Shown piece by piece: positions 553-59,033 of a DNA stretch of 64,000 nt. A model generated the notes under the pieces. That model had not been told where the DNA came from and ran no database searches. It was given only the letters and a program-made list of their open reading frames with translations. Each line of letters begins with the position of its first letter. Position 1 is the first letter of the stretch. Source of the stretch: Henriciella sp. (GTDB lineage Bacteria > Pseudomonadota > Alphaproteobacteria > Caulobacterales > Hyphomonadaceae); contig NZ_JAPYPG010000008.1 in assembly GCF_029937755.1 (NCBI RefSeq), positions 83,759-147,758 on the forward strand. Direction: 5' to 3'. Both the position numbers and the translations under genes were made by a program.

Positions 553-591
553 AATATGGGCTGGAACTGGGCTGAAACTGGAATGGTTCTG
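553..591 (-). repeat. 11-base-period degenerate repeat array, locus 1
   Basis: Read on the minus strand this intergenic stretch divides into CAGAACCATTC, a short CAGTTT, CAGCCCAGTTC and CAGCCCATATT. These share the CAG-start 11-base unit seen at two other intergenic loci in the window (near 29.5 kb and 50.4 kb). It lies between bioY and ygfZ and is the most degraded of the three arrays. No function is known to me. Confidence 0.55.
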
Positions 592-651
592 GACCCTCCA
601 AAATCATGGACAGAGGGTGGCGTTTCCACGGAAAATCCCTAAATCCCCGGC

Positions 652-29450: not shown

Positions 29451-29548
29451 GGAGACGGGGAAACCTCGCTGGCTGTTCGCAGCGCAACTTAGCCCTCAGG
29501 CGCGAGTCTGCAATGCGGGATAGCCGGCCATGCAAAAGAGCGCGAGAA

Positions 29549-29592
29549 CCGGACTGGTTTCGGACTGCTACCGGACTGTTTTCGGACCCTGA
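29549..29592 (-). repeat. 11-base-period degenerate repeat array, locus 2
   Basis: On the plus strand the units are CCGGACTGGTT, TCGGACTGCTA, CCGGACTGTTT and TCGGACCCTGA, each exactly 11 bases. On the minus strand the same sequence reads as CAGTCCGGTTC-type units, one of them identical to a unit of the 50.4 kb array. Confidence 0.85.
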
Positions 29593-50326: not shown

Positions 50327-50666
50327 GGACCAGACGGTCCACCGCTCTATCCCGCCCGAGAGGTTCCGGGCGCGTGCCGGACAGCATGGCCTCCATCCCC
50401 CAAAAACGACAGTCCGAAAACGTTCCGGTTTCAGTCCGGAAACAGTCCGGTTCCGGGGCCCGGAAAGCGTTCCGGAAACAGCCCAATTCCAGCCCAGTTT
50501 CAGCCCAGTTTTGGCGAGCAGAGCCGTGTCCGCCTCAGGTGACCTTCAGGGTGGTCTACGACCGTCGGCACCCTCACCCCTGACCCCTCTCCCGCAACCG
50601 GGGGGACGCGCCGGCTCAGGCGAGCCTCATATGGGCGAGGGGCACGCTTCGTGGTAAACTGGATTC
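50327..50666. other. Intergenic region with the main 11-base repeat array
   Basis: This 340-base gap contains no protein gene that I can support. Its centre (50410-50511) is the repeat array listed separately. The remainder (50512-50666) is GC-rich sequence leading to the 90-residue gene. Confidence 0.8.
50410..50511 (+). repeat. 11-base-period degenerate repeat array, locus 3 (nine units)
   Basis: Units in order are CAGTCCGAAAA, CGTTCCGGTTT, CAGTCCGGAAA, CAGTCCGGTTC, a 14-base variant, CGTTCCGGAAA, CAGCCCAATTC and twice CAGCCCAGTTT. Eight of nine are exactly 11 bases. The unit CAGTCCGGTTC recurs at the 29.5 kb locus and a CAGCCCAGTTC form at the 0.56 kb locus. Confidence 0.9.
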
Positions 50667-50939
50667 ATGAGCTACGATGTTGGCGCTGGCGACCTGGTGC
50701 TCTGCGTGAATGCGGCGCCGAACCATGTGACGGGCGAGCCGGTGCCGCTCGTGGCGGGCGAGACCTACCGGGTCTACTACGTCATGCCCTTCCTCTGCCC
50801 GTGCGGGCGCTCGGACGCCCTGCTCGATGTCGGCGTCGGCTTCGCCTGGTGCCAGACCCGCTTCCGCCTCCTGCCCAAACCGAAGAAGCGGCAAGTGACG
50901 CGGAAGGTCACTGCGCCGAAGGAGGTCGAGACGGTGTGA
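50667..50939 (+). CDS. Hypothetical protein, 90 residues
   Basis: The small protein has an N-terminal beta-rich part (GAGDLVLCVNAAP, then VAGETYRVYYVM) reminiscent of SH3-like hypothetical proteins, a CPCGRSD motif, and a basic C-terminus (PKKRQVTRKV). No signal peptide is present. The ribosome binding site is weak. The gene lies between the repeat array and the AT-rich DUF4238 gene and may belong to the same accessory insertion, although its own base composition is like the chromosome. I do not recognise the family with certainty. Confidence 0.5.
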   Translation: MSYDVGAGDLVLCVNAAPNHVTGEPVPLVAGETYRVYYVMPFLCPCGRSDALLDVGVGFAWCQTRFRLLPKPKKRQVTRKVTAPKEVETV

Positions 50940-51041
50940 GGGACGGCGGGTGTATTGTGCTCCGAAGAACGACACTTTGAAAACAGTGAAATTAATCAAA
51001 CCGAACAAGCACGAATAGACCGAAAACAACCGATCTTTACG

Positions 51042-51908
51042 TTACATACCAACAAGCGATTTCAATAGTTTTTCCGAGTGCGAGGCGATTTCGTGACTAT
51101 TCTTGGCGGCGTACTGGTTGATCTGACGGATTTTTTCAGGACTTGCTACGTTTCTATGGGGAATCCCGTTTCGGATATCGCGAACCAGAACCAACGCTAT
51201 CTTGGGACAAATCGGCATCCACATTTCCATATTCGGATTGGATAGACCATTGGAGCCACCATTTCCTATTCGATAGACCATTCTACTAGCAAGAATGAAT
51301 GAGTGCTTTGTCTCAGAGATCGCCCATCTAGGCACAAACTCAGAAAGCGTTTCTACTACACGCTGGCTGTCGTTGATTGTTGCGGCCACTCTTATGTGCC
51401 TACCTCGATCACGCAACCGGGCTTCGTTTGACAATTCAGCTTCTAGTTTTTGGCGTTGCTCAACGGGGACATCATCTGGCATTGCCCGCAAAGTGTCTTC
51501 AACAAGTTCTTTCCCAAGCTCAAAATCGTCGTGATCCTGAAGAAAATCAGGTGTTCTTTTTGCCATGTGCATCGCTGTCTTACGCAGAGAATCCAAAGAT
51601 TCGTCGGAAAAGTCGGGAATCTCTCCACGATCGAGAATCTCAATAGTTTGTGGAAGAATGCGACCGAGAAAGTCGTCTAGTTTCGCATAAAATGCACGCT
51701 CAATTCGGTCAGAACGTTGTTCATCTTCCAAGATCGTATTGTAATCTCTTATGACAAAAGTCTTTTCAATCGGCTTGCGCTTTGGCGCCGAATAAGTGCC
51801 GAGTTGGTCCTTCTTAGCACGCCAAATTTTTAGGGGATCACCCTCAATCCCAAATTGCCTTTGCAGTACCTTTGGGACGATGTGATGGTTTTTGGCTCTG
51901 TTACCCAT
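51042..51908 (-). CDS. DUF4238 family protein, AT-rich gene
   Basis: The 288-residue protein matches DUF4238, recognised from the N-terminal NHHIVPKVLQRQFG and the later helix-rich region with LRKTAMHMAKRTPDF. The family is widespread on mobile or accessory DNA and its function is unknown; the N-terminal HH-P pattern resembles HNH-type nucleases, but the rest does not obviously fit. ATG 51908 is the likely start; the track ORF adds 32 residues. The gene is much less GC-rich than its neighbours (a 60-base line counted by hand has 28 G+C), which points to horizontal acquisition. It is divergent from prs across 170 bases. Confidence 0.75.
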   Translation of the reverse strand: MGNRAKNHHIVPKVLQRQFGIEGDPLKIWRAKKDQLGTYSAPKRKPIEKTFVIRDYNTILEDEQRSDRIERAFYAKLDDFLGRILPQTIEILDRGEIPDFSDESLDSLRKTAMHMAKRTPDFLQDHDDFELGKELVEDTLRAMPDDVPVEQRQKLEAELSNEARLRDRGRHIRVAATINDSQRVVETLSEFVPRWAISETKHSFILASRMVYRIGNGGSNGLSNPNMEMWMPICPKIALVLVRDIRNGIPHRNVASPEKIRQINQYAAKNSHEIASHSEKLLKSLVGM

Positions 51909-52078
51909 TGTGCTTGCTATAGTGCCTTTCTGCGTATCAAGCCGCTGGAAATCAACTATCCTGAACTTTAACGTCCGCTTTCGGTTCTCCCACCCCACCT
52001 GCACCCTTTTCCTTGCGACTCGGCGCGCCTTGTTCCAAAAGCGCCGCTAGCGGATCAATGGAAGGGCTGGCCTGAGCG

Positions 52079-57989: not shown

Positions 57990-59033
57990 CTACTCGTCTT
58001 CGGGCGTTTCTTCTTCCGTATCGTCCACGATCGTCCCTGTGCGGAGCGGCGGGATCTCGATCAGGGAGCGCGGCACCTGTCCGGGCGGACAGGCCTCGAC
58101 CAGTGCGGGCAGGCCGGCATTGCCGATCGCGCGCAGGCGCGCCTCGTCGGCGCCACCTGTTCCAGCCTGACCGGAGCGGAAGACCCAGGCCAGGATCATC
58201 ATCAGCGCGATCCCGCCAAGGACCGGCCCGATTATCGTCCAGCCGATATCCTCACGCTCTTCATCAACCAGCGAGGCCGGGCTCGGCCGGCGATATGGCA
58301 TGGCCGAAGGCGACCGGGGCGGATTGAGCTTGATCTTCGGTGTCAGCGTTTCCTCGCTGGCGAGTTCCGATGTGGCGGCGGGTACGGCTGCAGCTTCGGT
58401 GTCCGGGGCTGTCTCCTCGACAGGTTTTTCGGGCTCAGGCGCTGGCGGGGCAGCTGGCGTCTTCGCGGTGGGTTTCTTCGCAGCTTGCTTTTTCGCAGTT
58501 GGCTTTTTCGCCGGCGCTTTCTTCTTCGCCGTCCCGGCAATCGGATCTTTCGGGTGCGCCTTCTTCCAGGCATCCTTCGCTGCGGTATCGCCCGCGGCGA
58601 TCTTCAGGAAGTCCGAGAGGTCCTTGCGGCCCTGCGCGGCGCCGAGTGCGTCCACAAGCGCATGAAAACCGGCCGGGATGCGCTTGGGGCCCATGCCGGA
58701 AATCCTGAACCGCTCATCCTTGTCGAAGGGCTCGTTCGGGGTGGCAGAGTCGAGATCGGCCTGGAACAGCGCATCCTTGAGCGCACGGGCGAGATGCGCA
58801 ATCGCCTCAACCCATTCATTGTCCGGCGAGGCCTTGTCGGCAGCCGTCTTCGACCACAGCACCAGCACCGCGCCGGACTTGTTCGCATCATTGATGTCGC
58901 GCGAACTCGGCGTCGTATGCTCGCGCTTGGCGTCGTAGCGAACCTTGAACTTCAAGGCCCGCAGGCGCTTGGCGACCAGGTCAGCTTTCGTCTTGTCCGC
59001 CATGGCAGACGCAATCATCACGTCATAGGCCAT
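57990..59033 (-). CDS. TIR-domain protein with KAP-rich linker and C-terminal membrane anchor
   Basis: The 347-residue protein begins with a TIR-like domain (YDVMIASAMADKTKADLVAK, then VLVLWSKTAADKASPDNEWVE, about residues 1-130). A Lys/Ala/Pro-rich linker (AKKKAPAKKPTAKK and more, about 170-200), an acidic Pro-rich part, one membrane helix (about 270-292) and a short outer tail follow. TIR domains in bacteria often are NADases or scaffolds in defence and signalling. The usual W-x-x-x-E is shifted (W-V-E), so catalysis is doubtful. ATG 59033 follows GGAGGA; the track adds eight residues. The gene sits between pth and ychF, which are normally adjacent, so it looks inserted. Function unknown. 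Confidence 0.75.
   Translation of the reverse strand: MAYDVMIASAMADKTKADLVAKRLRALKFKVRYDAKREHTTPSSRDINDANKSGAVLVLWSKTAADKASPDNEWVEAIAHLARALKDALFQADLDSATPNEPFDKDERFRISGMGPKRIPAGFHALVDALGAAQGRKDLSDFLKIAAGDTAAKDAWKKAHPKDPIAGTAKKKAPAKKPTAKKQAAKKPTAKTPAAPPAPEPEKPVEETAPDTEAAAVPAATSELASEETLTPKIKLNPPRSPSAMPYRRPSPASLVDEEREDIGWTIIGPVLGGIALMMILAWVFRSGQAGTGGADEARLRAIGNAGLPALVEACPPGQVPRSLIEIPPLRTGTIVDDTEEETPEDE

Follow-up and report, generated by a model that had tools for sequence, protein, structure and literature searches.

Oriented arrays of 11-bp units at conserved chromosomal slots in Henriciella, spelled differently between species

The stretch of DNA analysed here, referred to as the window, comprises 64,000 nucleotides of a Henriciella genome of 3.78 Mb (labelled G000), whose PrsA shares 97% identity with that of H. 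mobilis. Between pgeF and prsA, an insert is present that holds two short arrays of tandem units together with a 90-aa ORF and most of a DUF4238 gene, and the six congeners compared at this gap lack the insert, with approximately 15 to 200 bp in its place. The first-pass annotation described nine consecutive degenerate units at this position; eight units with an exact 11-bp step were recovered, organized as two abutting four-unit arrays of different sub-dialect rather than as a single run of nine. The two additional loci of the same unit family that had been announced in the window were located, both on the minus strand (Table 1).

Table 1. Coordinates of arrays and associated features in the window
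Feature	Position	Strand	Description
Four-unit array	553..596	-	Units GGGTCCAGAAC CATTCCAGTTT CAGCCCAGTTC CAGCCCATATT; between BioY and CAF17/GcvT-like genes
Four-unit array	29546..29589	-	Units GGGTCCGAAAA CAGTCCGGTAG CAGTCCGAAAC CAGTCCGGTTC
Insert between pgeF and prsA	50327..51985	.	~1.7 kb; holds arrays 1 and 2
Upstream arm position at array 1	50344..50409	+	Placed by the average of 116-117 arrays, not by this locus's own phasing
Array 1	50410..50453	+	Four 11-bp units, sub-dialect B (CAGTCCGG type): 50410 CAGTCCGAAAA, 50421 CGTTCCGGTTT, 50432 CAGTCCGGAAA, 50443 CAGTCCGGTTC
Interruption between arrays 1 and 2	50454..50467	+	14 bp, CGGGGCCCGGAAAG
Array 2	50468..50511	+	Four 11-bp units, sub-dialect A (CRTTCC / CAGCCCA type), equal to G000:C33:134226-134270: 50468 CGTTCCGGAAA, 50479 CAGCCCAATTC, 50490 CAGCCCAGTTT, 50501 CAGCCCAGTTT
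90-aa ORF in the insert	50667-50939		
DUF4238 gene	51042-52004	-	Most of it in the insert
15/30-bp tandem repeat	58450-58511		GCAGCTGGCTTTTTC (Tandem Repeats Finder); separate from the arrays, probably coding

Arrays in the Window and the Genome

The three window loci gave consensus-free period-11 scores of 0.70, 0.68, and 0.59, to be read against 60 Markov-1 resamples of the window in which the best score averaged 0.56 and reached a maximum of 0.67, so that the two higher-scoring loci stand above chance individually, unlike the lowest-scoring one. Across the whole genome, a two-unit pattern matched 72 times, with one match for the reversed control, and a 46-column sequence-only profile built from 31 arrays detected 38 places at E<1e-3. 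The search for further copies, whose absence had been named as grounds for abandoning the idea of a dispersed element, thus revealed abundant copies, about 38 loci in this genome.

The units of this genome (CAGTCCGGTTT) are tandem direct repeats with a layout of 7+4 bases, occurring in two sub-dialects, CAGTCCGG and CRTTCC with CAGCCCA, and exactly four units are present in 28 of the 35 arrays examined. The first unit often ends in GAAAA and the last in TTT or TTC, indicating that the order of units within an array is not random. When unit steps of 7 to 16 bp were scored in all species using a leave-one-locus-out unit profile, with the value of 11 not imposed, 450 of 459 steps were exactly 11 bp, which is an upper estimate since most loci had been gathered with 11-spaced patterns. 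The earlier impression that spacing is kept more strictly than sequence therefore holds within the genome and between species. Free drift of the spacing in relatives, the other outcome named as adverse, was not observed, apart from steps of 12-13 bp in two arrays of G010 (L319 and L499), a genome in which the candidate reader gene described below is split over two contigs.

Several conventional identities for the arrays were considered and set aside. An RNA element was rejected in view of the absence of consensus pairs in an RNAalifold analysis of 31 aligned arrays, the absence of Rfam matches in the window, and the lack of a strand preference relative to neighboring genes; no tRNA or tmRNA was detected in the window either. 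Copies of a longer mobile element were rejected, as the flanks share only weak A/T phasing and an enrichment of GGAAA/TTTCC. A small ORF present in several copies (MLTREW...), with arrays in G000 and G019, was rejected as a general carrier, accounting for only a few loci. A repeated small ORF (MLTREWIIAVLKTLPVWAWPIFF... / MLTRAWILETLALLPLYYWPVFF...) contains an array in its 3' part in G000 (L034, L038, L043) and in G019 (L262, L263, L265, L268), each written in the dialect of its own species, and L034 adjoins a tRNA-like sequence with a CAT anticodon.

The placement of arrays relative to genes was counted for 143 arrays with at least three units, using a home-made gene caller likely to have produced small false ORFs. 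Arrays were found in convergent gaps (36), in divergent gaps (19), between codirectional genes in sense (31) and antisense (23) orientation, and within called ORFs (26). Convergent gaps are overrepresented, harboring 36 of 109 intergenic arrays (33%), whereas 14% of the background gaps sampled from G018 (21 of 148) are convergent, and divergent gaps are underrepresented (17% of arrays versus 35% of the same 148 gaps). Arrays lie at a median distance of 38 bp from 3' ends, against 116 bp from gene starts. No functional theme emerged among the neighbors when 40 neighboring or window proteins were compared with Pfam. At the chromosomal scale, the spacing of arrays is more even than expected at random in G018 (P 0.0008) and in G000 (P 0.025), but not in G025. 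In G018, no arrays were detected in a gap of 854 kb (P 0.02) that, judged from a sign change of GC skew near 1.155 Mb (origin), includes the predicted terminus near 2.76 Mb; G025 does not show this, having arrays near its inferred terminus.

Slots and Dialects Across the Genus

Six other Henriciella species possess array sets with the same 11-bp step and a different unit. The profile built from G000 yielded only weak matches in four congeners, several of which proved to be 11-bp arrays spelled differently, and the sets themselves were recovered with generic and then dialect-specific patterns, for which reversed-pattern controls gave 0-2 matches. The dialects read CRGTAYRATTC/CAGTCTGATTC in H. 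mobilis (G019, 25 loci), CCGTCCAGAAA in H. pelagia (G021, 13 loci), CAGGCCGATTA in G025, YGGTGTGAGAG in G009, CGGTGCAGTGA/CGGTGTACTGG in G018, and CGGTGCATGGA in G005. H. pelagia additionally uses a second dialect of the CAGGCCGATTA type, as in G025; its CCGTCC.. arrays (L272-L285) and CRGGCCGAT.. arrays (L440-L445) occupy different slots, and one candidate reader gene was found in this genome.

The flanks of 152 arrays from seven species (1.4 kb each) were compared by translated search, demonstrating that the positions themselves are shared. Orthologous pairs comprised 99 supported on both sides and 76 supported on one side, some of the latter representing a single cluster linked by the repeated small ORF and to be discounted, and all pairs had the same orientation, with zero inversions. 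A single slot can carry arrays in up to six species, in differing spellings. The slot between MutA/small ORF and pdxJ is occupied in six of the seven species analyzed, the BioY/CAF17 slot (window position 553) in six species, and the convergent gap between xseA and NfeD in five; a slot inside an ORF with FabA domains is filled in five species with five dialects. Not every slot is common, since the gap holding the array at 29546 is empty in G019 and G010, and the pair at 50410 lies inside an insert missing from the compared congeners. In the FabA case, the array (L011:1501-1544, also L247 of G019) is situated within an uninterrupted ORF of 884 codons, beside the FabA domains.

Unit cores are nearly invariant within a genome, and array identity within species amounts to 0.72-0.76. 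Between G000 and G019, orthologous arrays share an identity of 0.579 and other arrays 0.561 (p 0.04). Orthologous arrays are thus hardly more alike than non-orthologous ones, compared with 0.72 within species, indicating that the units have evolved in concert.

The Upstream Arm and a Candidate Reader Protein

The composition of the DNA preceding the arrays was averaged over 116-117 arrays from seven genomes, excluding the repeated-ORF cluster. Peaks of A+T occur at -5, -15.5, -27, -39.5, -50.5, and -62, that is, about every 11.3 bp, and the coherent power at 11.5 bp is 32 in the 66 bp before the array, less than 1 in the next 66 bp, and approximately 5 downstream. The A+T phase is similar across all species despite their differing dialects, and GGAAA was found in 37 of 117 upstream 60-mers, compared with 9 downstream and 8 further away. 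A constant phased arm combined with an array in dialect describes a bipartite element of about 10-12 helical turns in all, in which arm and array together measure 110-130 bp and have a helically phased composition. These data are consistent with protein binding on one face of the helix, and the phased arm favors a helically phased structure that would act at the level of DNA.

In the slot that most species occupy, between a small ORF and pdxJ, a protein of about 200 residues is encoded with an array upstream of its gene. Its N-terminal part resembles a helix-turn-helix in sequence pattern (G009: GETYVQAARRAKVSLSTAKQWAAAMK), although no convincing match was obtained in Pfam, PHROGs, NCBIfam, or PDB, and the nearest Pfam matches stayed below threshold (HTH_28, E 0.035; HTH_Tnp_4, E 0.08). 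Profile searches identified a single copy of the gene in 14 of the 29 Henriciella genomes, split in G010 into two fragments that lie on separate contigs, and gave no strong match elsewhere among 398 genomes of the order; a phage or plasmid origin was rejected, as phages, plasmids, and viral contigs gave no match. In all 14 genomes, the gene is closely preceded by an array, which follows the dialect of the genome concerned and is irregular in G012 and G010.

The protein varies together with the dialects. It evolves much more rapidly than the proteins encoded beside it, retaining 58% identity between G000 and G019, compared with 89% for PdxJ and 85% for MutA. The most variable position of the helix-turn-helix, X in K-X-W-A, is V in six genomes with GGTGCA/GGTGTA arrays (G004, G005, G014, G017, G018, and G020), T in the non-sister genomes G019 and G010 with GTAC arrays, Q in G009 with GGTGTG arrays, H in G002 and K in G012 with GGTGTC arrays, L in the sisters G021 and G025 with GGCCGAT arrays, and E in G000 with GTCCGG arrays. 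In a partial Mantel test corrected for MutA distance, protein distance was correlated with dialect distance (r 0.47, p 0.003); the helix alone (r 0.24, p 0.07) showed no closer correlation with dialect than the remainder of the protein. When four genomes that lack the gene were scanned for period-11 arrays without a consensus, none scored at least 0.6 over 800 kb, whereas three did so over 400 kb in G018 and two within the 64 kb of the window. The co-occurrence of gene and arrays is confounded by ancestry because it follows one clade. On these grounds, the helix-turn-helix-like protein is the best and a well-motivated candidate for a reader of the arrays.

Possible Function and Alternative Explanations

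We consider the chances about even that the arrays are DNA-level binding platforms whose sites co-evolve with a putative reader. Such a platform would begin with the arm, which spans some six helical turns, bears phased A/T patches, and does not vary with dialect; the 11-bp units come next, usually four to six of them, and would set the same bases on the same helix face at each turn. A sequence-specific protein would align itself along these units, probably with bending or wrapping of the full 110-130 bp. The platforms would occupy ancient positions on the chromosome, some tens in number and most of them immediately past genes or in convergent gaps, a placement that makes chromosome organization, insulation, or a block to read-through likelier than promoter control, and the most likely purpose would be chromosome-wide, for instance to anchor or insulate the DNA where genes end. 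The putative reader and the units would change together, giving one dialect per species. The arrays themselves, with their slots, orientation, and dialects, are firmly established, and binding, wrapping, and the chromosomal role are inferred. Against co-evolution stand the two dialects of H. pelagia with one detected reader gene and the two sub-dialects of G000, and a change of dialect through point mutation and selection at some tens of scattered loci without a common theme would be demanding.

The chief alternative is in-place replacement of arrays by a rewriting or homing element, in which a transposase or a templated polymerase would periodically write arrays at slots marked by the phased arm, the dialect being that of the active writer. 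The concerted units, which are not retained at orthologous loci, would follow naturally from such a process, as would the two dialects side by side in G021, the slots that carry one or the other of these dialects in G025, the non-random unit order, and the arrays that some genomes possess in excess of their relatives. However, neither an enzyme nor a template was found, the flanks share no insertion motif except the weak phased arm, the zero inversions would require extreme target specificity, and unit variation between loci is rather high for recent copying, leaving this explanation unlikely. Less probable still is that gene ends carry a preferred site of DNA gyrase, another wrapping topoisomerase, or a nucleoid protein, the array forming the arm that is wrapped. 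Gyrase wraps a comparable length of DNA (~130 bp), and the total of 110-130 bp, the helical phasing, and the preference for 3' ends and convergent gaps would agree with such a site; the likeness to strong gyrase sites lies in length and in helically phased composition. Mapped gyrase sites (PMC6379681) are the obvious parallel, but a conserved enzyme leaves the sharply different six-base cores of sister species unexplained, and the cores are nearly invariant within a genome.

Operators of an ordinary regulon, for instance of an OmpR/PhoB-type regulator, appear improbable to a greater degree. Members of the OmpR/PhoB family bind direct 11-bp repeats, which the tandem direct repeats and the 7+4 layout in G000 resemble, but the arrays favor 3' ends and convergent gaps over promoters, their neighbors share no function that would define a regulon, several lie inside ORFs, and their spelling differs between species. 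Watermark sequences kept by molecular drive for species-specific exchange of DNA, comparable to DNA uptake sequences (DUS), have the slightest probability of the explanations weighed here. DUS are single 12-mers, approximately, present in very many copies. Their dialects are reported to differ between related species of Neisseriaceae (PMC3630211), and the Henriciella arrays likewise form a genome-wide family of short sequences whose spelling varies between relatives along with a reader, here putative. In contrast to DUS, these are some tens of multi-unit phased arrays per genome (about 38 in G000), not thousands of copies and not single short words, located at fixed slots with an upstream arm, and no link to competence genes was seen.

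Beyond these alternatives, the platform interpretation invites comparison with other DNA elements, and each of the systems likened to the arrays (DUS, iterons, chromosome-organizing sites, and gyrase sites) differs from them in one or more of its defining features, whether tested or expected. The sites of SlmA (SBS), Noc (NBS), and MatP (matS) each provide a DNA-binding protein with tens of dispersed chromosomal sites unrelated to gene function, as the arrays also do not follow gene function, but they are single palindromes with a stable consensus rather than direct 11-bp arrays in a changing dialect, and the candidate reader lies outside the known families, being none of the three proteins in view of its lack of a Pfam, NCBIfam, PHROG, or PDB match. 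Plasmid iterons and centromeres, such as ParR/parC of R1, carry direct repeats in tandem, each about 11 bp long and facing one side of the helix, with quickly diverging specificity, yet they form one locus per plasmid beside their own genes, unlike the approximately 38 chromosomal loci here, one of which lies beside the candidate reader. REP/BIME elements are similarly short, repeated, intergenic, and close to gene 3' ends; the arrays differ in having no palindrome or RNA fold (31 arrays) and in their species-specific spelling at orthologous slots. The searched open literature, a limited library, yielded no account of arrays of this kind.

In its broadest form, the platform interpretation describes a chromosome-wide code in a bacterial genus, made of phased 11-bp arrays at old, fixed, and oriented positions and read by a protein family without known relatives, with wholesale replacement of the code on several occasions between sister species. 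We assign slightly less than an even chance to this reading, which would make the code a bacterial counterpart of PRDM9-type recognition or of rapidly co-evolving centromeres. A factor acting across the chromosome normally has binding sites that rank with the best-conserved sequences of its genus, whereas here the arrays keep their place, direction, period, and length and swap their spelling throughout the genome between sister species. If the candidate protein is the reader, the genus would offer seven or more naturally occurring reader/site pairs, rendering the joint change in specificity of a DNA-binding protein and some tens of sites accessible to testing, and a new kind of chromosome-organizing or insulating system may emerge. 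Directly before the array and the candidate reader gene (L029 and its orthologues), a conserved ORF of 75-88 residues (..RILDWVESQSKVTRIWLDELIAEGDPNDLVSVIHRQAAWLELMRDRL..) is present, which may be part of the system.
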